From Sphagnum magellanicum (taxonomy: Eukaryota > Streptophyta > Sphagnopsida > Sphagnales > Sphagnaceae): 64,000 nucleotides of DNA. The position numbers and the translations under genes were made by a program. Every line of letters starts with the position of its first letter. Within the stretch, counting starts at the first letter, position 1. The notes under the pieces are model-generated. The model made no database searches. It worked only from the letters and a program-made list of their open reading frames with translations, and had not been told where the DNA came from. Below, one piece after another: positions 27,293 to 63,425 of this stretch. Location of the stretch: positions 22,637,223-22,701,222 of the forward strand of contig CM038907.1 in NCBI GenBank assembly GCA_021904315.1, read 5' to 3'.

Positions 27293-28379
27293 ACAGTTTG
27301 GACACAAATGAAGATTAATTGCAACTAATATTGATCTAAAAATAAAAACATTTCCAAGTTCAAATGTTAGTCTGGCATTTCACTATATTTAAATTAGAAA
27401 ACAACATTACATTGAACAAAACAACAAGAATGAAGCTTACCTTTGATCCTCATTGAACTAGACAACAATAATGAGTTAAATAGTAATAGTGAAATTTTAC
27501 CTTCGATCTTCATCAAGAGTTAAACAACAAGTCGAACTAAAAAACAACAGTGAAATTTACCTTCAATCTTCATAAAAAACTAGACAACAACATCGAGCTA
27601 AACAATAGTAATGGAACTTATTTTCAATCCTCATTAAGATAAAAAACAACATTTGAACTAAACAATAATAATGATGCTTACTTTGAATTCAACATTTTCC
27701 ATTTCAATTGTAAACTTGAAACAATTCTAAGAGGATTCAATCAATTAGTTTGTCATCTAAGCATCAAACCTAACAAAACTTAGAAATCACTTCATTTCAA
27801 TCCAACTGCCATCTTCAAAGCACATCAATTCAATACCATGACTAAGTTCATTTCAATTTCATTTCAACATTGCAACATTTTAGCTTGTTCATTCTATATG
27901 TACTCTTTTATTCCCTAAACATGCCTCAAATGTCACTCTTTGGTTGTCTTGAAAGTTCAATACCTTTTAAATTAACTTCTCCCTCATTATGTCCACTACT
28001 ACAAATCATGATTTTTTCTACTAGAAATTTTGACCAAAATGTACCCCTATTGGACACCAATAAAATAAACCACTTAATCATTTTGGTTGTTGTTTTTGAC
28101 ATTATTTACTTGATTGGTGGTCTTTTTGACTAATCGAGTGGCGAGCTATTTGATTGGTCAAATCAGCCAACAAAACATTTGGGTAGCAATTTTTTGGGGT
28201 CAATTTTTTAATTTCTAAAATGTGTACCCAATTTTTTAATTAAATGTAGGTAGGTGGGTCATAAAATAGGTTCATAAGTAGATGCTAACTACCCACCTAG
28301 GTCGTGGTGGGTAGTCATACATTCCATAGCCTAAGGAAGGGTTGTAGTACACCATCTTCACATATTACCTTAGGCATGT

Positions 28380-28455
28380 AAAGAATGGGAGTTGAACTTT
28401 GACCTCTTTAGACACATGTTTTATCAACTCCTTAACCAACTCACCACACCTCTAT
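28380..28455 (-). repeat. tRNA-like (SINE-like) segment in element A
   Basis: Read on the minus strand: an A-box-like TGGTGAGTTGGTTAAGG, then about 30 bases later a B-box-like AAGTTCAACTCCC. The spacing fits a tRNA-derived promoter. It is not a folded tRNA: no acceptor stem or CCA-side pairing was found. No A-tail or target duplication is visible. Confidence 0.45.
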
Positions 28456-28729
28456 TTTGTTAAGATTTGTGAAAATTTGTTATTAACATGTTCCATTTCA
28501 AAAAAATTCCGACATTCAAATTTTGAAATGCATTTTCTTCTTCATGTTTTACTCAAATAAAAAAAATGAATATTTTTTTTCAAGATCTTTCAAAGATCTA
28601 TTCATTATACAATAATGTATAAAATTTTAAATGATTTGTGAAAAAAACTTTCTTGAAATTGAATTGTTTCACAAACTCAACATCTATTTTTCCTTCAAGA
28701 TTTATTTTGTGTGTACATGTAAACTTGTT

Positions 28730-29345
28730 AAGTACTATTAAGTAGGAATTAATAAGTATTAGGTAGTACAATTAGTATGTAGTAACTAGGAACTAGATAG
28801 TGACTATGTAATATAAATTACCTAATTAATAGACCTACCTAATTACCTAAATAATAACTAATAGCTAGTTAATAAACTTAAATATAATTATAATTGCCTA
28901 ATAAATTAATAGGTATTAGGGAGATAAGTATAAGTTGGTATGTAAGTATACCTAGGGTAAGTAAATAGGTTTAGGTGGGTAAGTATGTAGGTAGGTTGTC
29001 AGGGTATGTATGTACATAAGTAGGGAGGTAAGGAGGTTGTTAAGGTGACTAAGTTGGTATAAGTAGGTAGGTTGGTTGGTTGATAGGGTAGGTATATTTG
29101 ACCTATTTAACTAACCTAAAACTAGGCCTTGAGGCAATTACGTACCTTGTTAAGTTTAACTTGGCTACCTAGCTTAAACTGTTAAATTAGGTAAATAATA
29201 AGTACTTAAGTTTTATTATTAAACTATAAATTATGTTAGGTAGGTGACCTAGGCCTAATTAATAAGCTAGTAGGCTAGTTATAGTAGGTTAGTTAATTAC
29301 GTATGTTAAGTATGTAGGTAGCCTTAACCTAGGCCTCCCTAACTA
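28730..29345. repeat. degenerate AGGT-word array in element A
   Basis: About 600 bp made almost wholly of TAGGTAGGT, TAAGTAGGT and TAATTAGGT-type words. It is G-rich on the plus strand until about 29,100, then changes to CCTAACCT/ACCTAGG words. No exact period; it looks like an old tetranucleotide expansion. Confidence 0.8.
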
Positions 29346-29802
29346 ATGTCAAATCAATATGTTCAAATTGACTAAAGCATGGTCATTTTGACTAACCTTT
29401 TACTTTTGTTTATCCCTTTAAACTATATGACCAATTGACACCTAGTCAAAAAAATCATTTTAGCCAAATGTACTAGTAAAAAATGACACATGTCTTTCAT
29501 GCCCTTACCCACTAGTTGATGGACATCACTTCTAATCAAAACAAATATTTTGGTCAAGTTGGACCTTCTAAAAGGTTATAATTTGTAGTAATGCTCATGC
29601 ATCCATCTTATGGTGTTGATGCCTTTTTATTCCACCCTACAAATCTTCATGTTCCAACTTCTACATCAATGCATTAACATCAACATCCCTCCCATTCAAT
29701 ATCATATTGTATAACAAACAATAACATGCAACAACATTAGGAAGAAAAAGGGTATGTAGATTACTTTTGACTAGTAATTTTCTAAAGGTGAATGTACGGT
29801 AC

Positions 29803-30540
29803 AGTGATTCAATAGCGACTAAAAATACACTCCTTATAAATCCATGTAAGATTCTTTAAATTGATTCAAATGGATATGGTTGTTACTTTTTTAAAAATTA
29901 TTATTTTAATCTTTGAATAATATATGTTCAATCATTTACAAACTTTCCCAAATCTATGTGAAAACTTGTATTGAATGTAACTGATGTCATTTTTTGGTTT
30001 GGAAGTCCTAAAAGGAAAACCCACAAAGTGTGAAGGAATAATACCCCATCTAAAACTTTCAAAAAATACGCTTTTGAGACAAAAAAATTGAAAAACAAAC
30101 AAAAATTGAAACTCATATGGATTTATGAAAATATGGTCAAATTTCAACCATTCAAAAGTCCTTGTTTCTATTAAATGGTTAAGGTTTTCAAAGAAAAGAT
30201 TCCTCATATGAGTTTATCATATTATATTACATTATATATTGAGTCCCAATAACAAATTCAGAATGTGAATTAATATGATTTTCTTCATTTTGTGATGTTT
30301 GAGTCAAATAATTAGTCCATATTTTTTTACTTCAAAAGTTCATCACTACTAATAAACAAATTATTTATCAATAAATAACCACATAGTTCTCTTCATAATG
30401 AAATTGTTAGGGTAGATCCAAGTCCCAATTAGTAGATCTAAGGATATATTAATCATCACATGGATTTGAATAAAGGGTACCAAGGAAAAAACACATTTTC
30501 ATCACAAAAGTGAACCACTATAATTTGCATTTTAGAAAAG
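29803..30540. mobile_element. probable ~0.73 kb insertion inside the Harbinger transposase
   Basis: Transposase homology stops at about 30535 and resumes at about 29800, so the sequence between is extra. Its edges look weakly inverted: GTACAGTGATTCA near the left and, inward from the right, TATAGTGGTTCAC. No coding frame and no clear target duplication, so the class is open. Confidence 0.45.
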
Positions 30541-30582
30541 TTTTTTTTAATATCCCAAAAGCATTTTCCACCACACTCTTCT

Positions 30583-31558
30583 TGTCGTAACCCTAGCTTT
30601 GGGCTCGCGACCAAGGCTAAGGGGGTTGCAAGGTTGCGGGCCAAGAGGAAGGAAGCCCGAGAGTCAAGGCAAAGGCATTGCAAGAATGCGGGCCAAGAAG
30701 AAGCCCGGTAGTTAAGGCAAGAGGAAGCCCGGGAGTCACATCACATACTCCCGGGAGTGTTAGAAAGTGCGAGGGAGTGAGCCCTCACACTCCCAAGGCA
30801 ACTCCCACTTGGGGAGATGGAGTCTTGGTGGACTCCCGAGACTTCAAAGAGCGATTACAAGGGTCAAACCTCAATGTCTTGTGGCGTTCCTTATATCATT
30901 GGAAAGCTCTTGAAGCGTAAATGCCTAAAATGGGCTCGCATTACTCATTTGGACATCTGAAACATAGGTTATGGCCAAAAGAAAGGCCAAGAGTCGAATT
31001 GTTAGTTTGACTCCCGACCATAAAAAGTCGGGAATCGACCCGATTTACTTAGTTGGAGGGGGCGTGCCACATATCGCTGGAAAGCTCTCGACAAGATCTA
31101 CAACTTTGCTTTAGAAGACATCGCAATCCGAGGTCTGCTCGCAAAGTTAGGGGGCTCCAAAGTCCCGGGAGTCCCATTTGGCGCGATTTCGGGACTCCCG
31201 CGTAAAATAGCCATTTGGATGTAGCCTCCATGGAGAGCTGCAGAGTATACTATAAGGGGGAAGGTGGTGGCTTCCCTCAAGTCCGGGCTGTGGTGAGTCT
31301 TGTGTGTTCGTGTTGCCTGTGGCTCATCCTAGCACCAAGGGTGCTCCAACTTTGTACTAACCACTTTGTGTGGGTTGTGTGTAGGCCCGTGTGAATGACT
31401 AAAGCTTGTCAAGTCTTCCTAATCCCATCCCGGAGCTCCAACCCGCCCTTCTACCCCTCAAAAGGTTATGAGCTAGGGAGCGTGCTCCGACTCCTCCTTT
31501 TCCGTTGCTTTCTACTTGGGCTCACATTTGAGCCCTTTGAGGAGTTAGGAGTGCGTCA
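30583..31558. mobile_element. solo-LTR-like retrotransposon fossil (976 bp)
   Basis: A GC-richer block with sharp edges sits inside the Harbinger transposase relic. It begins TGTCGTAACC and ends GTGCGTCA (TG...CA ends). It is flanked by CTTCT and CTTCC, a near 5-bp target duplication. A TATA-like ACTATAAGG lies at about 31249, in the second half as in many LTRs. No internal region or partner LTR is present, so it is read as a solo LTR. Family (Ty1 or Ty3) is not decidable. It is younger than the transposon it interrupts. Confidence 0.6.
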
Positions 31559-32729
31559 CTTCCCCTCCCCTTTGGAAGATGTCTATTATACAATTTTCCA
31601 AAAATGTGTGCCTGATGTTCATGTTTAGTTTATGGGGGATCACGAAATAAGGCAAAAGAAAATAGTCCTTATCCCCAATGATGTAGGGGTGAATGCCATC
31701 TTATGATCCATGTTCATGATAAAAAAATCCATCAACGTTTTCCTTTTGTAAGCTAAACAATCACAAAATTCTAAAATCATTGATGGATCCTCGCAATCAT
31801 GATCATGATCAACATCTACTTACAATTACATGATGTAAGCTTCGGATTTGTAGGAAAAAACATTACAACAAAAACTCCTTTAGGTTTTTGAATATTGATT
31901 TGTGTGGAGTCAATTGCACCTTAAACAAAGGGAAGGTCACACCAATCTTTAAAGCTTATCATAACCTTCAATAAATCTTCACTATATGGCCATCGATTTG
32001 ATTCTTGAGCACAATGTTGATAGTAATAACAAATTCATGCATAACCATGTTCATGGAAGATTTGTTGATTGTAAATATTTTGCTGCATTGAAGGTAATCA
32101 ACTCCATGGGTGAGCTAAAAAAATGAATGTGGAACTTTAATGCCAAGACAAAAAGAAATTGTAATAACAAGCAAATAACAATTCCACCATCACAACATAC
32201 ATGTAGGAATTATGCAGCTATAACTAGTGTTTTGCTTTCCAATCCATGGTTGCAACTTCTTTGTGATTTGAAACACAACTTCTTTGGTGATGCAAAAATC
32301 TTCAACTGAACTCTAATTTTTATATTGAATCATGACGAAATTGGAATACTAGGTGGTGTTTCAAGCTTTAACCCAATCATCAACCTCCACTAATAGAAAT
32401 CAGTCAAAATGTAACCACTCCATTTATGACTACATGCGACTTGTAGTCATTTGTGACTACATTTGGGAATATTTGCAACTACAAGACCAAATTTCAACTA
32501 TTTTGGTCATTTTCACAACTATGATGTAATTATTAAAAAAATTCATCCTATCGATTGGATCGATTTTACATTTCTTTTCATCCATTAATAGGTTGATATG
32601 TCCCATTAATCACAATAGTCACCAAATTAGTTACATCGTAAAGATATTTTATAATGACATAAGGGTGTATTTTAATGTATGTACCAAAATTGTATATATA
32701 TAATATGCATACGTATGTATATTGTTCAT

Positions 32730-33530
32730 ATAATGAATCTCAGAATTAATATTTGAACATTGAATTTTTAATTCAAATCTGAAAATTGTTATTTCAATTT
32801 AGAAATTTTTTAATTGATTATAAAAATGGACATTTTAATTTTGAATACTTTTATATGGATATGAAACTATATATTTCAACTCTGAAAAAATTTCATTTAA
32901 AATTTAACTAATCACTTGATTTGAACCTGAAATTTCAATTCCAAATTATTATTTTTGGACTCTCAAAATTAATAATTCATTCTAAAAATGGACATTTCAA
33001 TTTTAAATATTTTTACTTGAATCTGAAAATTGATTTAAATTCTGGAAATTTTTATTTAAATTTTAAAAAATTATTTGATATAAAAATTGATATTTGAATT
33101 CTAGATTATTATTTTTGAATCTAGAAATTAATATTTCAATTCAAAAAAAATAGTTGACTCTAAAAATCAACATTTTGATTTTAAATATTTCTATTTAAAC
33201 TTGAAATTTGATATTTGAATTCTGAAGGTTTAAATTTAACTTTTAAGAAATTATGTGACTTGAAATTGAAATTTGAATTCCAAATTATTATTTTGGATTT
33301 TCGAAATTAATATTTCAATTGAGAAAATTATTAATTGAGTCTTAAAATGGACATTTTATTTTGAATATTATTATTTGAACCTGAAAATTGACATTTCAAT
33401 TCTGAAATTTGTTATTTAACTTCAAAAAAACTTATTCTAAAATTTCATATTTGAATTCTGAATTACTATTTGGAATCTTAAATTTATATTTTAATTCAAA
33501 AAAATACTGATTGAATTTTAATTTTTTTTT
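32730..33530. repeat. decayed AT-rich tandem array, 160-180 bp unit
   Basis: The block CCAAATTATTATTTTTGGA..C/AAATTAATATTTCAATT recurs at 32941, 33101, 33280 and about 33460 (spacings 160, 179, 180). Between the blocks the order AAAATGGACATTT..., TGAACCTGAAAATTGA, ATTCTGAAATTT is also conserved. About four to five units lie inside element B. Looks satellite-like but heavily diverged. Confidence 0.75.
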
Positions 33531-34508
33531 ATACTAGTGTTATCCATAATAAATCACTTTTATAAATAATTATAAATGATTATGTTTATTCAATCGAAGG
33601 TACACTAAATATTTATTATTATAACATAAATTTTTATATTATTTAATTTATATTCTTACATTAGAATAAATTAATTAATGTAATTAAAGTGACATTACTT
33701 TAAAATCATTGTAATTACATCAGAAAAAAACTAATTAGTATGTGCATAATTATTTTCTATTTGAACATAATTATTCACACTCTTTAATTTATAACTTCAA
33801 ACCTGAATTAAAAATTTGGAAAAATTATAGTGTAGTTCGAATAATTATTTTACTGGTTTTAATTTCACGAATAATATTATTAAAAATTCTGTGATTAATC
33901 ATGTATGATAAATATTTTACATTAATTATGAAAATTAATGTTATGTTAAAAAAATTATTGTATTTAGAGTTGATTATTACCAAGAGAAAAAATTAATTGA
34001 CCTATAATAATTTTTACAGAAATGAATGTAATTATCCAATAAGTAATGTAATTAGTTGAATAATAAAATTAAAAGAATTCATGTAGGAATTTATTTTCTA
34101 ATAACAATTGTTAATTCATTACCTATAATTTTAACATAAATATTTAAAATAGGTTATTTTGAAATTATAGTCATTAAATTAAGTTTACATTAATTCGATC
34201 AAATTCTAAAAAATAATAAAATATTTTAAAATATTTTAATTATTTAATTATTTATGAATTATGTATTAATAACTTGTGAGTAACTAAATAACTAACTGTT
34301 AAATATTAATAAGTTATTGCTTATTTAAGTAATTAATAATGAATACTTAATATTTGTAGTGTATAATTTATAATTTAAATATATTAAAATTTAATCATTA
34401 GATAACAATCATTTTGAAATTACAACTTAGTTTGTGAGAAAGTTACAACTTCAAAATTTATCCCATATTGTTTGTTCTTCATTTTTATTTTGAACACAAT
34501 ATAAACAA

Positions 34509-34582
34509 GAGGGTGTGGTCATCTAATTTCACATTAAGAAATTTGTGCACATGGGATGAGGTAATCAAAAGTCTCAACTCAA
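34509..34582 (+). repeat. weak tRNA-like segment in element B
   Basis: GGGTGTGGTCATCTAATTTC resembles an A box; GGTAATCAAAAGTCTCAACTC, about 45 bases on, is a worn B-box-like end. Weak alone; listed because elements A and C have a clearer tRNA-like segment at the matching place. Confidence 0.3.
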
Positions 34583-34614
34583 GAAAAAAAAAATTATGCA
34601 CATTTCTAAAGTAC

Positions 34615-34845
34615 TTACCTTCCCAACCTACTTATCTATCTAGCTAAGTAGGTACCTAGTTTGACCTACCCACCTTGGTCGACCTATGTACCTACCTACC
34701 GAAATACCTACCTATGTATTTGACCTAAGAAAGTAAAACCTACCTACCTATTGTTTTACTTAAATAGGTAGGTTGGTATGTAGCCTAGGTTTGTAGGCAC
34801 TTATTTATGTACCTACCTAGGTACCTACCAACCTAATATATATAT
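34615..34845. repeat. ACCT/AGGT patch in element B
   Basis: About 230 bp rich in CTACCTACC, GTACCTAC and AGGTAGGTTGG words on both strands, followed by a short AT run. Confidence 0.75.
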
Positions 34846-35258
34846 ATAATTTTTTATTATATATTTTAATGCCACATGGCATACTTACATTGGGCCACAT
34901 GTCATAATATAAAATCATCCAAGTATTTGAATTGAACATCCTAGATTATTTCAAAATAATAATAGTAATAATATTTTAAATTATCAAATATTAAGACACG
35001 TGGTAACACATCATTTGTCTTCAATTGTGACCAAAATAGTTGCATCTTAGTCGCATGTGACAATACGTATACAATGGAGTTAAAGGATGAAATGTATTTG
35101 TTAACTTTTTATTTCATACAATACCTTTTGTCATTTACGATTAATTTATCACATGCGACTTGTCTTAGGTGACGAAAAGGATTTTAGTTGCAAAATGTCT
35201 CTTGCGACTAAAATTTAATCATGAGGACTAGTTGAAAATACATGTTTTTTTTCTAGTG

Positions 35259-37685
35259 CTCTTTTGTTATCAATAAATCAATGTTCCAAAAAAATTGAAA
35301 GTGATGCAAAACAACACTATCCTTTATACATTCAACCAACAATCTTGTACCATGTGCCATGAAATTTGTTGTTAAAAATGTAATCAACTTCATGGTCTCA
35401 TTTTCAATGTTAAAACACACAAAACGAAACTCCTACAACCACAAAACAATGTGAAGAAAAAAAATCAACAATAATAACTTGGGTGGCATCGCCATTGCAA
35501 GCTACAATTGAACAAAATAAAACAAATAACAAAAGATTAAAAAGCATGAATGGTGAACTATCTTGTGCACATGTGCAGTAAACAAAAGAGAGAATTTGAA
35601 TGATGGAAGCTTTAGAGCACATAACCAAATGATGAACATTCTAGAGCAATGAGAAAAGTTTTAATGCGTAGCAATAAAAAACTAATTAAAAAAAATGAGA
35701 AAGCTTCTCAAGGATATAGAAGATTGGAGAGTTTGATAGGCGAACAATCTTGCAAATAGATGCAATAAGCAAAGGAGCAAACTTGAATGATGAAACATTT
35801 GAAATGCATATCCAAATAATGAACACTCTATAACAATGAAAAAGCTTTAGTGTGTAGTGATAAAAAATTGACAAAAAGAAAATGAGAAAATTTCTCAAGG
35901 ATGTAAAAGATCAAAGAGCTTGAGATGAGAACTCTATAAAAAAAAACTTGAAACCAAATTGCTTTTGACCCTAAAAATTATGGATTTTGAAAATGTGACT
36001 TTAACAAAAATTGTTCATATATATGTGATAAAGGGCATGAATGCATAATATACATGATATAAAATCTTGTAGTCAAAATGTATTTATATCTAAAGTGTAA
36101 TGTTAAATGAGGTATTCAAAATACAAAATTATATATTATAAACCAATGCAAAAATGACATCTATCATGTGTAGTCCTTAGAAAAGGACTTTTACTTTGGC
36201 GTGCGTAACTCCTTTGATCATGATTTCATCCCCATACCTACCATGGTTAGATATTGAACAACAATGTAATGAAAAAATGCTTCATGTTTAACACCATCCA
36301 CCTTGCATAGTGTTGCATTGGGTGAATATCCACTTTAACTTGGATCACACATTATATTCAAGTTCTAATTAAGCTTAACATCCCTCCCTTCTCACTTTCA
36401 AAAGAATGAGTGTAATATCTAATGTTGGGTAATTATTAAAAATAGGAACAAACCAATGTTAGTCGATTATTGTTTTCTAGCAATAATTGACCAAATATAT
36501 TATCACCAAAAAAATTCAAAATGTAAACATGTTGGTTAAAGATATCAACATAATAACCTTGATTATCAACTTGCTCAATTACTTTTGAGTAGTAACCGCT
36601 AATTATGCATAAGGGTTAATTTTCAAATACCTAGTTGAGAACGATTAATTATATTGCTAGTTATACTTTGACTATATGATTATAAATTTTTAAATGTTCA
36701 TTAAAAAATTTAAATGTTTTTAAAAAAAATTTCTCATAAAAATGTTTAAATTTTAAATATTGACAACTTACCTTGATGATAATTGGGTCATCCAAGTAGG
36801 TTATCAAAATTTGAAAACTCAATACTAAGTAACTAGGTTATTTACCGAGTTGTAAAAAAATCAATACATGATTGTGAAGTTATTAATACTCAAACTTAGA
36901 CCCATCCAATTGCCCAAGCGAAACAAATAATAATCAACCAACACTAGAAGATACCTTCATAGTTATCAAAACAACTCTTAATATTCATAATCATGACTAT
37001 CAAAAAAATCAAATACACAATTGTGGTATATAACCAAAGTTTTTTAAAATATGAAATAATCGACTATAAGACTATTTAATTCATTGTCAATTCTTTCATG
37101 AAAATTGTCAAATGTTTATGAAGTAACTAGGACCATGTTTTTTTTTATTCTGCAAATATTCAAAAAAAATGGAACCAATTGTTTTTCACAAATTCAAATA
37201 TTGTCACAACATTGGTAATATCCCTCCTTTCTTTTTTAATGGATATTCACATATATAAAACCTACTTTACACTAAAGATCAAGGCCAAAGTTCAATTCAA
37301 ATTGAGCATTCATGTTGGTGCATTCATTGAAATTAGCTTCAAGTTACATTAAGAGTCAAGGTTGAAAAATGAAACAAAACTTTTAATCCAACATTATATG
37401 GCCTTGTATTAGCCCCAAGGATTGAAAAAGGTACCTATCAACTTGGGAGACCAATTTCTAATTCCTGAAGCCAATGTTACAACAATGAATTAAAAAGTTT
37501 GATGAAATCCACACCGTATGATCAAACTAAACCTTATACCAAACCCTATATATTATCCTTCTCCATTTCATCTCTATCCATTTTGTTTTCTTGGTGAACT
37601 TTTTTATTTGTTTGTGAATGATGGATGGAATTTTTGAGTTATTTACTTAGTATATGAAAGATGTTGGAGTGTTCCATGAAAGGGT
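35259..37685. other. AT-rich spacer, nothing recognised
   Basis: Only short frames. A ~120 bp phrase is repeated: GCAATGAGAAAAGTTTTAATG...GAAAGCTTCTCAAGGATATAG (about 35645-35720) and ACAATGAAAAAGCTTTAGTG...AAAATTTCTCAAGGATGTAA (about 35830-35910), with a GAATGATGGAAGC / GAATGATGAAACA block ahead of each. This is a diverged tandem duplication of about 190 bp. Confidence 0.5.
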
Positions 37686-38334
37686 GTGTCAAGTGTAGGT
37701 TTTCATTCATTTCAACCTTTTGATTCACCTCTTCAAATGCCAATAGTTACAAGAGTTAATTTGGCCATCCTGACTTCAAATCATATTTTTCCAAATAAGA
37801 AAGGCTTGGAAAGATTAGAGAAATTTGTGCCCAAGAAAGAATCATCAATTAGAAAGTTCATAATTTTCAAGACACCCAAGAAGACAATGTTCAAGTTGTG
37901 TAGCAAAAAAAACAACCTCAAAAAAAGGTTTCATCCAAAAAAGGTGGTGAAGGTTGAAAAAGGTGAAGCAAAAGGAGATGAATAAATTAAGAAAAATTGA
38001 AAGGATTGCTATGTGAAGGCTCTAATTGCTATTTGTGGGGAGATGGAGTTATAATTTGTCAAGAATGCAAAAAAAAGGTAAGATTTGAATCCTTACTATG
38101 TGTTTCAATTCACACTCATTTGAAACTATATAAGCAAAAAAAAATTCAAATTCAAATTAAGCCTTTGCAGCTCATGTTCATTTGAAATTTTAAAATCAAA
38201 AGATAAAATTCAGATTTAGATTAAGGCCAATTAAGGCCTTTAAAAGGCATTGGCCTTAGCCATTTGATTTTGCATCAACTTCTCCCACATTGTTTGCCTT
38301 CCTCATTTTTACTTTGGATTCACACCATGTGCCT

Positions 38335-38395
38335 TGAATTCACATCCCTTAAGGGGGCAGAGAAAGAGCCTAACCACCAAGCCATTCCATTCAAC
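38335..38395 (-). repeat. possible tRNA-like segment
   Basis: On the minus strand TGGCTTGGTGGTTAGGCTC resembles an A box and GGGATGTGAATTCAAGGC a poor B box, about 30 bases apart. Could be the head of a worn SINE. Confidence 0.3.
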
Positions 38396-38603
38396 ATGTA
38401 TTGAGGTAAAATTTGTTTTTTCATGTATAATTTCAATTGCTGATTTTTTTTAATAAACGATTATTTTTGCACTATTTCAAACTTAAATTAGCCCATAGAC
38501 TACCATTTGTGACTTCTAAACAACATAAGGCCCATACATTAACATTTTCTACTTTTAGTTTCAATGTTTAGAGGTTGATGTATGGTTAGAATTACATGTT
38601 TAC

Positions 38604-38801
38604 ATGGTGACAACAATTCCTAGATTTACAAGGATAATTAAAAGATGCAAGAAGGAGTTCAATTTGTTGTTGAAGACTAACAAACTAACAAATGGCATTT
38701 CAAGGGATGAAAGACATGAATGCAAGTTTTATGAATCCAATGATCAATGGCAGCATCAAGGTGTAATGAAAAATGTCATTACATTTGCCATTGACACATA
38801 A
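38604..38801 (+). mobile_element. PIF/Harbinger-associated MYB/trihelix-like gene, C-terminal fragment (element 2)
   Basis: Short plus-strand frame ending CKKEFNLLLKTNKLTNGISR, DERHECKFYESNDQWQHQG. This matches the C..KFN...K..K....GISG.. RH.CKFY..LD.W.H layout of the MYB/trihelix-like partner protein of plant Harbinger elements. The open stretch at 37686-37985 (Lys-rich, 99 codons) may be its upstream part, but that is uncertain. Confidence 0.5.
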
Positions 38802-39245
38802 TTACTTCAATTTGAGGACATCACTAAGTTGTTGGAAAAACAATTGACTTTAGAAGTGACATCATAGTCTTCAATTAAAAATGATAAAAAGAATTTTCAT
38901 AAACAAGTAGTTGTCATGTTCACCAAAATTGTGGAAAATAGTACCATCATGGTGAAGGATTTTGAGAAAACCAATGCTCTACATGAAAGAGTTGAGATCA
39001 TCAAATGGATTGACTCATAAATAAGTTATAGGTCCATGAAACCTATTTTGATTTAAAATCAAATGGTGTAGTTGGGAAAAACATTTTACTTCCACACTTC
39101 AATTTTGTTTCATAAAATGTGTTGGTTAATACCTCATGAACTTGTGTGGCTTCCAATAACATTTTTAGAATTTTGATTTCTTTATTTTTCTTTGATTTTG
39201 ATGCTTTTTCAATTTTTCATCTTCTTCAATTATTTCCACATTGTC

Positions 39246-39246
<1 letters not shown>

Positions 39247-39283
<37 letters not shown>
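39247..39283 (+). repeat. 37-base poly-C tract
   Basis: Uninterrupted C37 (poly-G on the minus strand) between the two Harbinger gene relics. Such runs are prone to length error in sequencing and can form G-quadruplex or i-motif structures. Confidence 0.95.
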
Positions 39284-39409
39284 TTCTACTTGAATAATGT
39301 TTTCGAGGTGTTGTGGTTGACGCATTTCTTTGATAGCTTGTTTTGTCACATGAAGTGCTTGCGCTGAAATTATTAGAGGAGATGGTTGACTTCCATTTAT
39401 ATTATTTGT

Positions 39410-46299: not shown

Positions 46300-46301
<2 letters not shown>

Positions 46302-48202: not shown

Positions 48203-48251
<49 letters not shown>

Positions 48252-52128: not shown

Positions 52129-53944
52129 TGATGTTAAAACCAGGCTGGCGGTATTCTCCTCAATCAAAGTTTACAGGATACAAAATTGACTTCCAGTGCA
52201 GGTAGCTCATGCCTTGCATTTTGGAGTTTCTTTTTGTCCGGGTTTGAGTTTTATTTATCATATCAAACAAACGAGACAAGGAGCCAATGAGTAAAACAGC
52301 ATGAAGTCCTAAGTGATGGGCAAACATCAAATCTGCACCATGACAAGAATGGAAAAGATAAAGATCCCACTGATTAAACTAATTCATTTGCAACCCATGA
52401 GACATTCTTCTGTGTTCTGCAGCAAAACTATAGTGAGCTTTCCATGTGAACATCTTGGATATTTAGATGTTAAGACAGGTTGGGTCCTGTATCGTGAATG
52501 TGGAATTTTGTGCTCACAAGTTCTTGTTCTGAGCATGAACCTACTCACATCAGCCCATCATGGGAATTATTGTTGCTAGTATCATGGAACTCACTTTGAG
52601 AGAATTAGGATTGATCCCTTTAAATTAATTGTCACACAGTACAAACCTAGTGAAATTCCAAACCTCAAGTTCTACTCAAATCAATCTCTCATGTGACTTG
52701 ATCCAAAATTGCATGTGATATCAGGTGGAGTGGGGCATTTGAATGGTCAAGTTTGTGTGGAGGAATTGTAGATCAAGGAGGGCCACAGATCAGGAAGGCC
52801 CAATCATCCCACACTCCAGGAAAGGCGGGAAGTAAGATGATCCCTGGCTGATAATCAAGGGTGATGAACACCTTTTCAATTGCGCATTCTATTTGTACCC
52901 TGACCTAATGACCTGCGATTTCACATAGCCTGCTTTTTTCATGCATGACTTTTACAACTGTCAAACCATTGTTACGGTGAAAGCCTAGAGCAATTGATGG
53001 ACTAAATGCACCCCTTAGTGTCATCTGAAAGCTGGAAACCTTGCATGAGGTAGAGTGGAAATGGGCGGCATATGGGTAGGAACTGTAACCTTTTCCATGG
53101 GAGTTATGATTCAATTTCCATGAACTACCCAACTTCACTGTTGCATTTGTACAGCTGCCAATGTTATGACCTAGCTATTACATGGGTAGATTCAATTCTG
53201 CATATACATCAATAGGGTATTATTGACTGAATTTTGGCTCAAGGTTATCCAACAATGATGCTAATATTGGTCCTTAGACAGCACAAAGTATTTTCTTGAT
53301 TTTCTATTTCCATTTTCTTTTGAGATACTCTCCACTAGTTGCCCTTGTGATACCTGGTTGATACTTGACATATGGGTTGAACATGCAAACCACATCAAGC
53401 ACAGTTCTGCTGTCATAGATAGTCCATTACGAACATGAGCGGTAGGTCTTTGAGATAACCAAGGCAACCACTAACTTCAGCAAATTGTTCAGCAACAGAA
53501 GAGCTATGAAGTGGAAGTAATGCCTCTTTTCCTTAGCACCATTGAAGGTATTGCTTTTGTTTTGGAAGTGGGGTTTCATTGCAGGATCTTGTATGTCTCT
53601 TCAGAGAACTACTCATCCCAAGTTTGTTCACCTTCAGGGTAGGGCACTGCATTTGAACCTTGAAGTGAAATGGAATTGGTGAGTGCAATTGTATGCTGTA
53701 CAACAATGGTGAGTGCTGTATAGGGGAAGGCCCGGTTGTCAGTGCCTTTCAGCCCATGTACTGAGGGAAGAACTCAAGGTCCAGGGTACAAGGGCACTGA
53801 CAACAACGGTTATGCATTTCCCTTGCATAACAACTGAGGCATGAAGATCGATGTTGTAAATCACCTTACACCCCCACTCGCCCTAGGGTGTTTACACTTC
53901 ATGATTCCCCACTCCAATCTGGAGCGAGAAATTGTGTTGTGTAA
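52129..53944. other. 3' flank of the SUMO protease gene
   Basis: No gene recognised. A hairpin with 12-bp arms GTTGTCAGTGCC (53735-53746) and its complement (53793-53804) is followed at once by GTTATGCA...TGCATAAC at about 53809-53831. Confidence 0.5.
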
Positions 53945-54062
53945 GAGCATCTCCACTGCACACCAGCAAACAACTCCTTTACATCTGGACGAGTAATAGT
54001 CACTGTCCAAATCCATAGTAGAAAAAAGGGGTGTTTGCTGGTGTGGGGTGGAGGAGATGCTC
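53945..54062. mobile_element. Tourist-like MITE 1 (118 bp)
   Basis: Terminal inverted repeats GAGCATCTCCAC...CACCAGCAAACA at the left; the right end read inward is GAGCATCTCCTCCACC. Flanks are TAA and TGA, a worn version of the TTA/TAA duplication made by PIF/Harbinger-mobilised MITEs. No coding capacity. Confidence 0.65.
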
Positions 54063-56572
54063 TGAGGCACACTCCAATTGCACTGCAAACTCATCCACCC
54101 GAGGTTTGTTATGTTGTGAAAAAAGAAGCTGTTTCTTTGACTGGGATCTGAAATTTTTGTTGCACCTACATTACATTGCAATGTGATGATGGCTCAATGG
54201 TATGAGGACCCCCAGTTTGGTACCATGAAGCAAAGCTTCCAATTGCTGTCTAGAACTGCTCTCAGAAAGTTTTGCACATTTTCACCGAATTGGGTGAATG
54301 AAAGTGTGGGCTCAAGAGTGCAATTCATAAAAATGCAGCCCTTAATAAGCTGTGTGTGTGTCCAACCAACACCTTCTGTGTTCCTAATTTTTCCAGTTAA
54401 GACACTTACCGAATTTGGGGTTCTTGAACAAAAAGAAGAGGCAAAAGAAAACATTGCCAGATTTGTGGGTTTGTGAATCTCTCTTCTTGGGGTTTCTTGT
54501 AATTTGCCCTTTCTCCAGTCCCTTAAGAAGACAACCCAAATTTTAAAAGAGGACAAAAATTGTACCATAGATCGATCTGCTTGCTTCTTTCCTTCCTTCT
54601 GTGCACATTATCATCATTTGTGAATATGTCCCAAAACCAGTGTGTGCATATGTGTGTGTGTGTGTGTGTGTGTATTTTCTTCTTTTTTCAGGAATTTCTG
54701 ATGTAGCATTGGTGGCAATTATCCCAAATACAACTCCGCATCAATTGGCAAAATCATTTGTAGAAAACTGTCCAAACTCTTTAAAACTGGTGAACTGAAA
54801 ATATTGTGTTGAAGTGTGACAAAAAAAAAAAAAAAAATCCCAAAATTTTATTTTGTTTTCTCCAAAATTTGGCATGCTTTTTTTTCCAGCTTGCAACAAT
54901 TTTTTTTTGAGGCTGAATTTTTGCTAAATTTTGCAAAAGAAAACCCCAAAAAGTTGATTGTTGAAAACCTGCCAATAAAACATCAATAAAACAAAGCAAC
55001 TCAACGAAAAGGGAGAGAAAAACATACAATTGATGGAAGGACCCAAGTCCTTGCAAACGAAGTACATTGCAATTGAAGTCCTTACAAACAGAGAATTGGG
55101 ACAAATCAAGTACCCAACAACCCTTGCCGCCCCTCAAATTGCAAGAAGCATATCAGATAAGGAGAGGGGAGTCAAAATGTTTGGAAAAAAATGCTTAGCC
55201 TAAAAATCAAACTCTCACCTACAATAGTAACATGCCTCAAAATAGATGTCACAAGCGATTGATTGTTTGTTACAATGGCAATTGACGCCCTTTATTTGTA
55301 AAATGAACATAAAACCAAAAAAATAGGACTTCCGAAAATTGCTTTTCATTTTTCACACCATGTTAGCACATCAATGAAAAAAACCATCGACTTTTGTTGG
55401 ATGCAAACACTCAAAGAAAAGACCTCTTATGACCAAAAAACAAACACTGCAAATAACACTTTTGTCTTAGTTAATTGTTTTCTCGTAGAATTGACAAGTG
55501 TATGTTTCACAAGAGGCTTTCATTCATGCAAATGAAAAGGGTATGTACACTTTGTGTCTGTTGTTGAACACCGATTTGTTGAATAGATCGGTGTGTCCTA
55601 GTTTGCTAGATTGTTTTCCTTGCTAGTGAGCATTCTAAACTCTTATGCTAAGTGCGGCTCAATTCTCATTAAGCTTTCTCCCAAGGGCTTTACATAGGTT
55701 AAAAAAATCAGTGTGATTTTAGAAAAAATTCCATTGATGCCCCAGTGGGTACCTCCCAAATACTCGCCGGGTATCACAAGGGGAAATTTTTTTGGTAAAA
55801 AAGTTAGATTTTTGACCGAAAAAACATGATACCCATAGAGGTGGGTATTACAATTTTTGAAAAGCCCGCTAGCCTATTATGCTATGTAAGGGTACTTACA
55901 ATGACACACTAAAACAATTGGCCTCTCAAATTTTTTTTGGAGTTTGGACCCATACAAGTTAGGCATTGTTTATATAAAAACTTCAAATTATAAGAGTATC
56001 CAAGCGTTTTTTGCTTCCAATTTGGAACCATGATTTGAAGCTTTTACTCTCTTTTTAAGTGGCTTGAAACTGGGTGTGAAAGAAAGCACATGAATACTCG
56101 TATAATTTGGAATTTTTATAAAACAATTGTGTTCATAAACTTCCACAGGTTCAAACCTCATGCTCAGATTCGAAAAACTCAATCCTCAAAATCACAAACC
56201 CCCCATGCTACAAGTTTGAAATCATGGGCTCCCAGTAATAATAATATAAATGAGAATCTACCTCGATTGGGAAATTGCTGAACTGAACCCACAACGGCCA
56301 CAGATTGAAACTTACATGCATGATCTGAAGTATATTCTCTCACCTCCATGTTTCCTCACTTGCACGACCAAAATGGCGAAAGATATGAAATTTGCATTTT
56401 CAAAATCTCCACTATCTAGCTCCTTCCTTCATTGGGTCGATTTCCTTTGTGTCTAGCCAATGCATGAACCTTGAGCTTTTTTTTATCAAAAGAATCTACA
56501 TATATATAGATTCTTAAAATTTTGACAAAAGTCCAAAATTGTTGCCTCAAAGTAAGTAAGTATCTGGGAGAA

Positions 56573-56604
<32 letters not shown>

Positions 56605-56887
56605 GATACTTAATAATTCATAGTTGGCAATGACAAGAAAGCACAGAAGGTGATGGTAGTAGAACAAATTGAAGCAAATTGCATAACAACAACCCTGACA
56701 TTTGACAGCCATAATAGCATTAGATTTTTATGTGACCATGTGTTCTGACACCCAATTGTGCTTAGGAGAATGCAAATTTGAGATCTACTTGAGTCAAAGA
56801 CTTCAGATCAGCTAGCTACATGGGTGGTTAGCTTCTATGAGAGGCGTAATCTCTCTTTGAAGTTTGTACTATCTAGGAAGTACCCAA
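54063..56887. other. spacer with microsatellites, no gene
   Basis: (GT)n at 54651-54673 and 56573-56601, and A17 at 54821-54837. AT-rich again from about 54,800. Short frames resemble nothing known. Confidence 0.6.
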
Positions 56888-57100
56888 GACCATCTCCACC
56901 CACAGTAGTGAATTTTGTCCCCTACATACACAAAATGCACACTATTTCGGATGATGTATGTATGTATATACAGCTTTCAAGTTGTGTGAAACTTAGTTTC
57001 AGGCTGGGGGGGGCGAACAATTTAATTTACAGTGTAAGTTGGATGTGGTAAACATTGTTGACAAGGAGCTGAAAAATAGAAGGAGTGGGTGGAGATGCTC
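56888..57100. mobile_element. possible Tourist-like MITE 2 (213 bp)
   Basis: Left end GACCATCTCCACCCAC; right end read inward GAGCATCTCCACCCAC (15 of 16 bases match). Flanking triplets do not match (CAA, CTC), so the ends may be slightly misplaced or the target duplication eroded. Confidence 0.5.
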
Positions 57101-58366
57101 CTCTTAGAAGGACAGACATATCTTTTTTGCCAGCAACAAAAAAGGAAGAGGAGCAACAACAACAGCAACAACCCACTAGTGTTTTTTAGACTGGAAAGTG
57201 TTGAGAGTCTCACTACTGACATGACTCCAATTTGTCATTCAATTTCAATGACTCCCAACGGTCCCTTATGTGGACAAAGTGGTTTATACAAAGAGAAAGT
57301 TTGTGTGGCTTGTTTTCCTTCAAGTAGTCAGGAATTTTTTGCAAGTTCCGAGATGAACAGATTTTTTCTGCAAAGCACAAAGCCCATGTAGGCTAGTGGT
57401 CGTGGTGGTGGTACTTCACCTGCCATAGTGGGCGGCGACTGGGCAGTTGGTGAGGGAGCTAGAAACATTTTAGGCTGGCTGACTGGTTGGCTGGCTGGCT
57501 GGCTGTTTGTTTGTTTGGCTTCTCAAGAGTGTGCTAAATTATAATTAAAACCGAGTAACTTAAGTGTTGAGTACAAAGGTCCCACTAAGTATTTTGGATT
57601 ATGGTAACCGATGAGGGCGAATTCTTCTTTTCATAACCATAAGTACCATTAGAGATGCTTGAGCATTCCTTGCTCTAGTGTGTGCCAACTAGAGTTCTAT
57701 TTCATGTTGCAAAATCAGTGGTAGAAGCAAGCTTGTTTTGGCCACTTGGCAAAAAAAACAATTCCAGTGCGACAACCCATGTGATGAAGGATTTTTGTGA
57801 AAACAATGCACTGAAGTTGCCAGATTTTGAGAAAATTTTATCTCAAGTTTTTTTTTCAGTGACCATTTTGAGATTTTTGAGAAAAAAATTATCTGGCAAA
57901 ACCATGAACTTTTGAACCTTTTCAAGGACATTAGGGTTCAAGCAGGTCATCAAAATCTATAACAATTTATGCTTTCATGTGTGACCTGTAACCAAATTTG
58001 GCTAATTCCTCTTGTGGATGATTTGCCCAGTGTGTGTGTGTGTGTGGCTACAACACAAAATTGAAAGATAAAAAAAGATGGTTAAAAGGATACGACATAA
58101 ACCCAAGGTCTACTACCAAAATGATATGTGTGTGTGTGTGTGTGTGTGTTTGTGGATATTTTTTGGAAACAAAATTTCAAGCCCATATATCCTTATCCAT
58201 ATGTGATTTTTAAGTATCCCTACGGATAGATATCCTCGTTTCGCTTAGGATCAACATGTTCATTAAGAGGACAAAATGATAACAAGGATATCAACATGAC
58301 ATGAGGCAAGACATGAATGACTTCTCACAAATGTTTAGTTCTTCCAAAACCCTCCAATGAAATGAT
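57101..58366. other. spacer with short repeats, no gene
   Basis: (GGCT)n-type tract at about 57474-57512 running into (GTTT)n; (GT)n at 58030-58047 and 58127-58150. No gene seen. Confidence 0.6.
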
Positions 58367-58427
58367 CCAAGTTCAACTTTTGGTCCAAATGTAGTAGCTA
58401 GGGTTTAGGACCAAAAGTTGAACTTGG
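58367..58427. repeat. perfect 20-bp inverted repeat
   Basis: Arms 58367-58386 and 58408-58427 are exact reverse complements (CCAAGTTCAACTTTTGGTCC) with a 21-base spacer. Function unknown. Confidence 0.92.
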
Positions 58428-58615
58428 GTGAGTCTCATGTAACAAATTGGGCCACCACACCATCAACCCCCCTTCCTTCCTTCTTGTGGTCTTGGCAGAT
58501 TCATGTCGACCTCAATGACTCTTTGAGCCATTTGGGTGGCTGTAATCTCTTGATGCTTTCATGGAATATTTTGTTTCCAGTTTCTACAAGTTCACACCCT
58601 AGTGCACAACTCTTA

Positions 58616-59003
58616 GAGCGTCCCCACCACCCAGTGCTTAGTATGTGACCCTGCAGGAATATTTCTCACATTCAAGTTTTAGTTATTTAGTTTCTTCCAA
58701 CCCCACCCCACCCCTAAAACTGAAACTAGGACTGCAAATAGGTGGGACCTACTGATAGCAAACCACCTGTACGAATCATTATGTTTGGCCAATCAAAAAC
58801 AGGGAGTTGCAGTCAGATCATATTTATTACACTCTACTCTAGCAGGTGCACAGCTTTGCTGCGCCCTTTACGAGCCTCATCATCACATTGACCAGATATG
58901 CAGGAGCACAAACCATTTCCCTGACCTAAACCGGCACATTTTGACTCTTCTTCATCTCATTTTAATGTGCAGTGTCACATACTGAGCACCAGTGGAGATG
59001 CTC
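58616..59003. mobile_element. Tourist-like MITE 3 (388 bp) with TTA target duplication
   Basis: Left end GAGCGTCCCCACCACCCAGT; right end read inward GAGCATCTCCACTGGTGCTC. The similarity runs on through AGTATGTGAC.CTGC on both sides, so the inverted repeats are about 37 bp. TTA flanks both ends exactly (58613-58615 and 59004-59006), the PIF/Harbinger signature. No coding capacity. Confidence 0.85.
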
Positions 59004-60352
59004 TTAAGATCTACAACTCTAGAAATCAAACACCACTAGTGTTAAATATTGGGCAGAGCAGCACCCAAGTCACTAAATAAATTAGACATCAAATTTTGCA
59101 AGGAATTATGCTTCTTCATTGTGCTGGGTTAGTGGGTACATCTTGGAGTTTCATCACTTTCTAATGGCCGCAATTGAGACAACACTTTTCAACTTTCCAC
59201 CCACCAAGTGTCGCATGGTTTTTGAGTGACCACTCCACTTGACCAACCATCTTATTATACTTGAGTCCATCACTATATCTAACATATAATATAGTTGTGG
59301 AATGAACTCGAAATCACTCACAATTTGGCTATTAATCATAACCATTTGGGTAGCTAACTTATGCTAAAGCAATATTGTTGTGTCGTGTATATGTTTATAA
59401 CTATGCCATAATGCTGACAATTTTATGCACACAAGTATTTAATAATGACACCATCTCCATCACCAAGTGCGAAAATGGAGGCCATGTACATAGTTTTTTT
59501 GTAATTGCAATAGGGAAAATTTTGTTAAGTATATAAAGAATACCTACTATTTTATTTTATTTTTGCTTACCCTTGTAGTAGGATGGTGCTCTAAGAAAAT
59601 ATTATAACAGAGTTGGCATCATATTATTTGTTTGCCTTTAGTAAAGCAATTCAAAAATAAACCTCTATCCATATGGTTATTTGGAAAGATTTATCCCAAA
59701 ATTATCAAATTAGATTCATATCCAACATCTTCCCCTTTTTTTTCCCCCTTTTTTTTTCGGTCATATGTCATATATCATGATAATAAAAAGTAAATGGAAA
59801 ATAAAATTATTGAATCTGAAGGATTTGTCATCAAGAAAAATAAATATTGCATCTTCAAAATTGACAAATTTTTGCAAGATCATGTATCTTCCCAAACTAG
59901 ACTTTAAACAATTTTAGGTGTAATCATTTTTGGACAATTATAAATTTCCAATTTTCATTAAAAATTATATTATATTATCATTCGGATATAATATATAAAA
60001 AAGACTACTTGCCCCCGGGGAGAGACACACACACACACACACACACACACAACTCCCAAGTGAACACTTTCAAGATTCTTTGCATTCCACTTGATTGTTT
60101 GTGTTAACCATGTGTCCACTTGAGCCTAATGTCTGCAAATTAGCATTGTACTCCCATTGTTAATTAAGGGGTGCAGACATCACATGTAACCCACATGTAA
60201 ACCCACATGTAACCCACATGTTTAGGGCTCTTTTCTCATGGTTGTTGTTGTGGTGAAAGAGAGAGAAAGAGAGAGAGAGAAAAGTGTGAATATTTAGGAA
60301 TGTGCACAACCTCATCAATGTGGTTCATCTTGGGTAAAATGGTAGCTCATAC
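59004..60352. other. AT-rich spacer, no gene
   Basis: (AC)n at 60027-60050 and a CACATGTAACC/CACATGTAAACC triple repeat at about 60180-60220. No coding sequence recognised. Confidence 0.6.
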
Positions 60353-60590
60353 TAAACCCTAAACCCTAACCAAAAACTCTATCTATTACATATACATCTC
60401 TACATCTGCATGGGGGACTATATATTCATTGGGTTAATTTTTTAGGTTTTAGGGTGATCAATAATAACCCTTCTGAGAATTTGGGTTTAGGGTTTTAGGG
60501 TGGGATCATAATATAGGTCACAATAAGTACCTAAAAGTGAGTGGGTTTAGGGTTTAAGGTTGGTTGTGATGTATATTATTACGATCCCAC
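60353..60590. repeat. interstitial telomere-like words and a palindrome
   Basis: CTAAACCCTAAACCCTAACC at about 60353; on the other strand TTTAGGGTTTTAGGG at about 60485 and GTTTAGGGTTTAAGG at about 60545. The last two fall in an imperfect inverted repeat: GTGGGATCATAATATA (60500) pairs with TATATTATTACGATCCCAC ending at 60590. TTTAGGG is the common plant telomere unit. Confidence 0.75.
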
Positions 60591-61835
60591 TTGGAGAGCC
60601 TAAACATTAGTATTGTTCGGCATATTATTATTCATTTCAACTTATTTGTTTAAAATCAATCTATTGTAATGAAATGCATATTCAAAAGTATGTAAATCTG
60701 AAATTTTATATTTTATTTGTAACCTTGGATGTATGTAAGAAATACCTATACTCAAAATTAGATACGATTTGTCACCAAGTAAATAAAAAGGGGTAAGTAT
60801 GACTTGAACCATAAAGCTTTGTTAAATTTTTCCCAAAAATTATAAGTATCTATGTGAGGATGCCTCCCTTTGGCCACCTCAAAAGGGGAGAAGAGAAAAT
60901 CTTTGGGCAAACAATATGGGATAAAATTAAGCACTAGTAACATATAATAAAAATGCACATGCTAGTCATGGATGAATCAAACACTTTGATTATTGAGTTT
61001 TTTACATTAGAATTGACCTTTAATGTCTTTAAACATTTAAAATTCAAACATTTGTTTCATTTTCATTTTTAAAAATTTATAAAAAAAATACTAATTTTTA
61101 CTTTAAAAAAAGGTATGTAGTAAAGGACACCCTAAACCTTGCCCACATACTAGAAAACTTAATCTTTGTATACTTGCACCCTAACCTAATGATTTTTTTA
61201 TTAATGGTAATATACTTTACTTGATGACCAAGGATACACTAAGAAACATCATACTTGCACAACATTTGTCATGACCTCTCTTCTTGACTAGGTGGCAACA
61301 AACCCCTTATTTGTCTACCTTGTGTAGACCCTTATTATGGTAAAAATTGGGGCTTCGAGCTTTATCATGTAGAAAGACCTAAGCAAATTTTGATTTTTTG
61401 AACTGGTGGGAACTAATAGTTTGTGATCATGAGTGGGGATGGATGGGAAATGCAAAAGAATGGGCTTTACCAAAAAAAAATTGTTAAGATCCATTGATAA
61501 AACATGAAGTTGTCATCATCACACAAGTAGTTTTATGTGTAGTAACATGACCTCTAGATGCACGAAGGAAAGTGTGCAAGGTTTTTATGTATTGTTGAGC
61601 ACCTTAAATACCAAGTAGGTCTATACTCATAAATCTAGCCCAACTTATCGTAACCTTTGTTCTTATCTAGGTGGTAACAAAACGCACGTATGTGTGCACA
61701 CATGTTTAGCAAGCTCCATCTTTAATTCTCCATTTTCCTTGGTTCAAACACATTTGATTCATTCACAAAATGAGAACATTTTATGAGTTGTTTTTAGAGT
61801 TTTTTTCATCATTTGCCAAGTACTCGAGTATTGGA
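60591..61835. other. AT-rich spacer, no gene
   Basis: No recognisable coding sequence or structured repeat. Confidence 0.6.
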
Positions 61836-62254
61836 CATTACAAGAATCTTGTCCATTATAACATCATGTTTGCAACCCTTGGTGTGACTAATGTCCAAGT
61901 TAACTAACTCTACGACTATAATTGTTACAACCCTATGTGTCCAAAAATCACATGCAATTCTAGTCACATGTGCAACTCAAATTTGGCACGTGTCAATTTG
62001 TAGTTGTAGATGCAATAATTTGTTGCAATTGTTGTGCATCTCAACTGAAAAGATGAATAAGAAGTGAGTTCATGTCAATCATAATTGATCACCTTGAGTG
62101 ATAAATGATAAACAAGTTGTTTTTGCAATTGTTATATGTACTCTTGAACTTTTGTGTCAATTTTTGACTGTAGGCATGACCATCAATTGTGACTAATGTG
62201 TACATTTGAATGAATGTATGGAGTAAAATGTTAGGGGGGTTGATAATTAATAAG

Positions 62255-62940
62255 CAAGTAGGTAGACATGTTGGTAGGTTATAGGTGGGTAGGTTTTGAA
62301 TGATAGGTAGATTTGGGCTTTGTAATAAGTACGCAATTAAATAGGTTAGATAGGTAACTAAGCTAGGTAAGTAGTTAGGTTAGGTAGGTAGGCAAACTCA
62401 ATGGATAGGTAATTAAGTTATGTAATCAAGTTAGGTATGTAAGTTAGGTAGTTAGATATGTATAAAAACACTAAGTAAATAGGTAGGTACAACCTAGGTA
62501 GGTTAGGCTATAAAAATAATTACATTAAGCATGTGCCTAAGTAGGTAAATTAGACTAAATAATTCTATATGTAGGTAGATAGACTAAGTATGTAAGTATG
62601 TAGGTTAGATGGATTAAATAATGTAGGTGGGTCAATATGTAGGCTAGGTACTTGGGCTAGGTACATAGTTAGGCTAGGTGAGTAGCTAAACTAAGTAGGC
62701 TAGGTTTATATGTAACAAAATTACATAAACAGGCTAGGAAAGTAGGTAGATACATTAACTAACTAACTAGTGAAATAATTAGGTTAAGTAGCTAGGTAAG
62801 TAGGCTAAACTAGATAGATTTAAATGTATGTAGGTAGCCTATGTAGGTAGGTACCTAAGCTAAGGGGGTAGTTAGGCTAGGTGGACAAAATAGACTGAGT
62901 ACCTAAATTATGTAGGGTAACTAAACTAGGCTACCTAGGT
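62255..62940. repeat. degenerate AGGT-word array in element C
   Basis: About 690 bp of TAGGTAGGT, TTAGGTAAGT and CTAGGTA-type words with strong G-over-C skew on the plus strand. No fixed period. Confidence 0.8.
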
Positions 62941-62990
62941 CAATTAGAAAAAAATGATCATAATAAATATGACACAAGATATTTTTTATT

Positions 62991-63062
62991 AAGGACGTGG
63001 TGCATTAGTGAAGGACTTTGTTCCCCATCATGGAGGTGAGAGGTTCAAATATTCAACCTCAC
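62991..63062 (+). repeat. tRNA-like (SINE-like) segment in element C
   Basis: A-box-like TGGTGCATTAGTGAAGG starts at 62998 and B-box-like AGGTTCAAATATTC at 63041, the usual tRNA promoter spacing. It lacks a convincing acceptor stem, so it is not called a tRNA gene. Confidence 0.45.
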
Positions 63063-63425
63063 AACTTATTCAAATTTCAAAACTAAACCTAGGTTGGTAA
63101 CTAGGTTACCTAGTCTAAACTACTTACCTACTCTTTTTTAACTTACATAATAGGTATGCACACATTTATATGTTCAATCATAGGTGAGTTGTAAAAGTAG
63201 TGGCAAATGTAATCACAACCTTGGTGCAACTAAACATATCACCATCCAAAACAATGAATGAAAAACCTTGGTCAAGTTGTAGGGAAGATGTGATTGCAAT
63301 TGAATGTCACATAATGTGTCATGTATTGTTTTATGTGACTAATTTTTTTGCAACTTGTCTAAAGATATTGAACATTGATATTTATGACTTAAAACTAGTC
63401 ATTAATATTTAAATTCTTTGTATTG

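Follow-up and report, generated by a model that had tools for sequence, protein, structure and literature searches.

A stretch of 64,000 nucleotides from Sphagnum magellanicum (contig C1, positions 22637223 to 22701222; hereafter the window) contains three elements, A, B and C, with inverted CACTA-like ends and arrays of the word AGGT; A and C also carry a module that resembles a transfer RNA (tRNA). An initial annotation, made from the letters alone, had grouped the three as one family of CACTA elements, each with a built-in tRNA-like segment. Comparison with the genome (438,994,042 bases in 31 contigs) shows that this layout is largely real: it is found in A and C and recurs in two further families, here called D and E. 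The grouping into one family did not survive, as A, B and C have only simple repeats in common among the 60 best BLAST rows. The annotated lack of a transposase holds insofar as no open reading frame of at least 130 amino acids is present in the three elements, which were not put to a protein-family scan. In the remaining 57,939 bp of the window we detected no terminus of families A to E and no module at an expectation value (E-value) of 0.001. The features are collected in Table 1; stretches fetched from the genome carry L numbers.

Table 1. Features of elements A, B and C, in positions of the window.
Feature	Positions	Strand	Remarks
Element A, CACTA transposon without visible transposase gene	27994..29593	+	1,600 bp; flanks GTC/CTC, non-identical
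Terminus of A, CACTACTACAAATCATGA, module-side end	27994..28011	+	127 genome sites at no more than 1 mismatch vs 5 for the reversed pattern
AGGT/ACCT patch of A, between module and end	28245..28320	.	partly palindromic; limits by eye
tRNA-like module of A	28373..28453	-	38 genome matches; family consensus 17/18 box letters
AGGT-rich array of A	28725..29340	+	limits by eye; dense block 28901-29250
Opposite terminus of A	29576..29593	-	15/20 terminal bases match the other end in inverted orientation
Left target-site duplication of B, CTC	32385..32387	+	flank comparison
Element B, separate CACTA family	32388..35258	+	2,871 bp; full-length relatives L018, L019, L023, L025
AT-rich internal repeats of B	32744..33529	.	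self-BLAST; tandem repeats of period 19-22
AGGT/ACCT array of B	34609..34840	-	limits by eye; dense block 34526-34900, 6 AGGT + 18 ACCT
Right target-site duplication of B, CTC	35259..35261	+	flank comparison
Element C, third CACTA family	61836..63425	+	1,590 bp; flanks GGA/CAA, non-identical
AGGT-rich array of C	62226..62945	+	right limit by eye; dense block 62226-63225, 40 AGGT + 9 ACCT
tRNA-like module of C	62991..63078	+	21 genome matches
AGGT/ACCT patch of C, between module and end	63088..63150	.	read from sequence; limits by eye

Relatives of A, B and C stop at the same ends as these elements, so that the annotated CACTA-type termini are confirmed. For element A, eight relatives were fetched (L029 to L036). 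Its first base is the exact start of the alignment in seven of them (in L034 the alignment begins 7 bases earlier), and CA[CT]TA stands at this base in all eight. The last base of A was reached by BLAST in three relatives (L029, L030, L036) and A-type right ends were also read in L031, L034 and L035; the end of L033 is eroded and L032 has lost the usual right end. Genome-wide copies keep the ends of A, with 40 matches to the left end (80 candidates, 40 scored) and 41 to the right end (185 candidates, 40 scored). An A left end lies within 400 bp of 33 of the 38 A-type module matches and a right end within 3.5 kb of 24; both ends accompany 22 of them, with spans of 1,391-3,388 bp. The modules are thus not found mostly outside the elements, a possibility that the initial annotation had raised for modules and arrays alike. 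Four A modules lie together at C9:1.65-1.77 Mb. The locus L050 (C7:2478450-2487650), considered as a long element, proved to be an A copy split by a retroelement-like insert at about A position 302-313.

Both ends of B coincide with the ends of its four full-length relatives. The profiles of the A and C modules gave a best hit in B at an E-value of 0.68 and found no module within the B copies of L018, L019, L023 and L025, which rules B out as a module carrier; a C-type hit in L025 (6358-6531) falls outside the B copy (2443-5472). Of the tRNA-like segments that had been annotated in all three elements, those of A and C therefore stand and that of B does not. For element C, whose left end has 40 genome matches (48 candidates, 40 scored), eight relatives were fetched (L042 to L049). 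Five of them (L043, L044, L045, L047, L048) reach this left end to within 13 bases, and C-type sequence continues beyond the module in seven, the exception being L049. A second tRNA-like stretch stands beside the main module in L042 (794-880, minus strand, at an AGGT/ACCT patch) and in L049 (1313-1400, plus strand), the latter with a box score of 16, counted as matching A- and B-box letters out of 18. In L047, an A-type terminus starts near the C-type element (C-oriented positions 2134-2248).

The search with the 18-base terminus of A led to the further families: 100 of its 127 sites were listed, and those ending in CATGG yielded nine loci. L051, L054, L055 and L059 make up family D, and L052, L053 and L058 family E; L056 and L057 contain neither a module nor a dense array in the fetched stretch. 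The D modules match the C profile at E-values of 2.5e-5 to 3.4e-12 (the latter in L055) and the E modules match the A profile weakly (0.035 in L052, 0.0072 in L053); L058 gave no module hit by profiles. A first look with the D module returned 711 candidates, of which 40 were scored and all 40 matched. With a longer query, 19 of these 40 places, L055 included, matched the D end with the expected side and strand, and no D-end match was obtained in the other 21, one of which is L063. Reading outward from four hand-picked D module hits, none of which belongs to one of the 100 listed termini, we reached a CACTA-type end each time, in eroded form in L063.

In A, C, D and E the order along the element is the same, namely interior, module, AGGT/ACCT patch, terminal region and CACTA end. 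The distance between the element end and the 5′ end of the module is 355-523 bp in 15 elements of these families, and 18 more D places have values of 412-555 bp; the module points outward in every element of the four families whose end was read. In the window, the module of A is directed towards the left end, from which its 5′ end is 459 bp away (A-box-like word starting at 28446, B-box-like word at 28398), and that of C towards the right end, at a distance of 434 bp (words at 62998 and 63042). The consensuses of A, C and D reach a box score of 17 and that of E, built from two sequences, reaches 16, the B-box-like word standing 42-51 bases beyond the A-box-like word. In 254 kb of background, four places have a box score of 16 and none a higher one. 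Among single elements, 19 of 25 score at least 15, and no box pair was found on the opposite strand of the 25 at the same thresholds. ARAGORN in relaxed mode called three of the four module consensuses, compared with 6-11% of shuffles.

The similarity of the module consensuses exceeds that of 500 out of 500 shuffles for the pairs A-C, A-D, C-D and A-E. A comparison of 90-column profile windows of A, C and D with the other families brought out two main islands of conservation: the module windows score across A, C and D, and weakly in E, with up to 27 bits, and the terminal 200 bp or so score across A, D and E with up to 34 bits (C at most 9). The maximum is 15.6 bits for windows on the AGGT patch and array, and scattered windows elsewhere do not exceed about 11. 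The conservation of the module island between families is a hint of its long retention.

Membership in the CACTA group can be judged from 21 elements in which both ends were read, the end strings being picked by eye. Inverted CACTA-like termini, with 11-20 matches among 20 terminal bases, are present in 20 of them; within the A relatives the match is 15-19 bases in six and 5 in L033 with its eroded end. Identical 3-bp flanks occur in 14 of the 21, against 0.39 expected, or in 13 of 20 if L031 (C9) and L035 (C13), which share their surroundings as one duplicated stretch, are counted as one event. All five members of family B have them (CTC, GGA, TAA, TGA and TAA for B and its four relatives), as do four of eight in A (AGA in L029, CAT in L031 and L035, ATG in L036; not A itself, L030, L033 and L034), one of two in C (GTG/GTG in L044), two of four in D (L051 and L055; not L054 and L059) and both in E (L052, L053). 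The L044 row is not blind, its right end having been chosen with the flank in view. Outside this count are L032 (right end lost), L042, L043, L045-L049 and L058 (both ends not placeable) as well as L056, L057 and L060-L063 (not read at both ends). The subterminal word GTCAA/TTGAC, the only motif tried, occurs 12-32 times per kb in the terminal 250 bp at both ends of A, D and E elements versus 0.7-3.2 times inside. Transposases of the PF02992 family are encoded in the genome (152 matches from 657 candidates, every listed one above the cut-off), and 150 PF02992 places compared with the 100 listed A/D termini gave four pairs no more than 25 kb apart.

The AGGT 16-mer has 4,900 sites in the genome versus 1,522 for the reversed control. 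Within the window, the arrays had been described as confined to A and C; this is contradicted by the dense stretch of B (Table 1) and by three weaker AGGT/ACCT blocks of 7-9 words each outside all elements (7301-7500, 17551-17700, 25826-26000). Going along contig C1 from one AGGT 16-mer to the next, we fetched twenty loci of about 10 kb each. Ten of them contain a terminus of families A to E (L009, L010, L011, L016, L018, L019, L022, L023, L025, L028), and the reversed control contained none; four of the ten are B copies that were used to build the B profiles, leaving six of the other 16 as independent cases. One locus (L027) has a module-like hit only, and nine have neither terminus nor module, so that some arrays may lie outside recognisable elements. 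The arrays are often, not always, located within recognisable CACTA elements. Measured in the same way, the array-dense stretch is 550-975 bp long in the eight fetched A copies and 350 bp long in A. An attempt to pair CACTA-like ends de novo at the array loci was uninformative (15 of 20 loci versus 7 of 20 in the reversed control) and was superseded by the profiles built from known termini; under a stricter variant, pairs were obtained at 5 of 20 loci, and those of three loci coincide with true B ends.

Elsewhere in the window, an inverted repeat at 48789-48852 matches mir-3688 on both strands below the gathering score, two tandem copies of 247 bp with 95% matches lie at 23657-24150, and a run of 37 C is found at 39247-39283.

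We consider it probable that A, B and C are non-autonomous CACTA (En/Spm-type) transposons, and that A, C, D and E descend from carriers of a captured tRNA-derived stretch that was inherited and spread by CACTA transposition. For their movement, the three elements of the window would depend on transposases supplied in trans from other places in the genome. Ancestral CACTA elements may have picked up a stretch, presumably of tRNA origin, with the shape of a type-2 promoter of RNA polymerase III (pol III). This would have been a single capture, which the later families would have inherited in a constant position, some 355-555 bp from one end and facing outward. The module would then have spread through transposition of the whole element and not as a free short interspersed nuclear element (SINE). 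The family consensuses do have the trait of tRNA-derived SINEs, A- and B-box words at tRNA-like spacing, but the module does not behave as an independently dispersing SINE, given that the A-type copies mostly lie beside an A end and the four D-type copies tested run into CACTA-type ends. The AGGT/ACCT patch and the long arrays have most likely grown by slippage and unequal exchange, because the array length varies between copies while the ends are fixed. The module itself we take to be mainly an inherited passenger.

A number of observations weigh against this reconstruction. ARAGORN in strict mode was negative for tRNA both on the window and on 46 loci, and Rfam at an E-value of 10 found none in the window stretch with A, B and C and in 16 relatives of A and C (D and E were not scanned), the sole hit of that kind being a 13-base fragment of transfer-messenger RNA in L031 (E-value 1.7). 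Covariation is absent from all 21 predicted pairs of the A module, and there is no structure in C. A conserved cloverleaf RNA was rejected for the lack of covariation and of an Rfam tRNA in A and C; it is thus the tRNA-type promoter words that are present and the fold that is absent. The relaxed ARAGORN mode is noisy, with 62 calls in the 25 elements, many of them off the module, and six of these elements, C of the window included, have no box score of 15. One genomic tRNA, called as tRNA-Tyr, was compared as a possible parent, and 41 to 443 of 500 shuffles matched or beat it, so that no clear parent emerged. Identical 3-bp flanks, a check named in the initial annotation, are seen at B but not at A and C of the window, and GTCAA/TTGAC shows no clear clustering in C (4-8 per kb) and B (0-12). 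None of the PF02992 places could be identified as part of an autonomous partner: the nearest, on C7, lies outside L055, and the other three pairs (16.6, 18.5 and 23.8 kb) were not examined. Module similarity is not significant for C-E and D-E (53 and 44 of 500 shuffles equal it). C has no termini in common with A, D and E, which strains a single line of descent. Moreover, an objection already made in the initial annotation stands, as module and G-rich strand of the main array run in opposite directions in A and in the same direction in C.

The negative results with Rfam, strict ARAGORN and covariation could mean that the tRNA-like look arose by chance in AT-rich repeats and that only the CACTA elements and arrays are real. 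This is very improbable in view of four consensuses at 16 or 17 of 18 letters, set against a background without any place above 16, and of cross-family profile hits that fall on the module segment. The distinct termini of C, which nevertheless holds a similar module, would rather be expected if one tRNA-derived SINE had been inserted several times independently into different CACTA families and amplified with each host element. The second tRNA-like stretches in L042 and L049 favour such a history, for which the available part of PMC6887750 offers a precedent in MER6, a DNA transposon with a SINE domain. We nevertheless think it unlikely, because four families would by chance have had to end up with the module in one and the same direction and at comparable distances from the end; in addition, no population of free copies came to light, as 33 of 38 A-type matches and the four D-type hits tested lie in CACTA elements, although the other 5 A-type places and 20 of 40 D-type places are unassigned.

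The module might also be kept as a working part that binds TFIIIC or pol III about 355-555 bp inside the end and thereby, for instance, resists silencing, blocks spreading chromatin or drives an outward transcript across the terminus. Its standing as one of the two main conserved islands argues for such a role, as does its outward direction in four of four families together with the lack of opposite-strand box pairs. However, the mean pairwise identity in family A (eight copies, the duplicate L031 dropped) is 0.862 for the module and 0.848 and 0.859 for its flanks, which speaks against strong present constraint; six of 25 elements reach no box score of 15, as noted above, and family B spreads without a detectable module. 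A working part thus seems to us a doubtful explanation, and with the modules of family A conserved no more strongly than the sequence beside them, any present function must count as unproven. More doubtful still is the wider proposal that a branch of CACTA elements may have retained an outward pol III/TFIIIC module in many copies of several families, where it would serve the transposon's life cycle as a tRNA-type promoter or as a boundary element. If the module does bind TFIIIC or pol III, a DNA transposon would have sown many ready-made pol III sites in the genome, with possible consequences for silencing, for small RNAs and for the boundaries of chromatin. Should it be a passenger, as under the inherited capture that we prefer, the elements would still clearly illustrate how a DNA transposon can spread a tRNA-like sequence, and the module could serve as a marker for sorting CACTA families.

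With non-autonomous CACTA (En/Spm) elements, the Sphagnum elements share inverted termini of CACTA type, target duplications of 3 bp and a genome that encodes PF02992 transposases, and A, D and E show a clustering of GTCAA/TTGAC near their ends that may correspond to the subterminal repeats of this group; they differ from ordinary ones in the built-in outward tRNA-like module and the AGGT arrays. In tRNA-derived plant SINEs, A- and B-box-like words stand at tRNA-like spacing as they do in the Sphagnum modules. Unlike these SINEs, the modules show no free dispersal, and the tested copies end at CACTA termini. As far as the available parts of the sources go, the CACTA element Jozin of Chenopodium likewise has a tandem array near one end (PMC8978399, PMC7320549), but its monomers are 171 bp long and the element, which has a transposase domain, measures 16.5 kb, compared with arrays of a 4-base word in elements of about 1.1-3.2 kb here; the term tRNA is absent from the accessible text of PMC8978399. 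In MER6, a miniature inverted-repeat transposable element (MITE) with a V-SINE domain, a SINE-derived stretch has also been spread by a DNA transposon; according to the portion available, this is a mammalian element of the Tc1/Mariner type with a SINE conserved domain (PMC6887750), whereas here a tRNA-like promoter stretch is found in CACTA families. Tandem arrays in CACTA elements and a SINE domain in a DNA transposon have thus each been described, and their combination was not found in a search of open-licence PMC articles; a tRNA-like module in CACTA elements was not described in the titles and abstract openings of that collection. CACTA elements are given as the most abundant classified repeat type of Sphagnum genomes, at 6.8%, in the part of PMC9946827 available. 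Within this group, the elements described here are ordinary in kind, being CACTA transposons without a transposase of their own, and unusual in content, with an outward tRNA-like module and AGGT arrays in several families.

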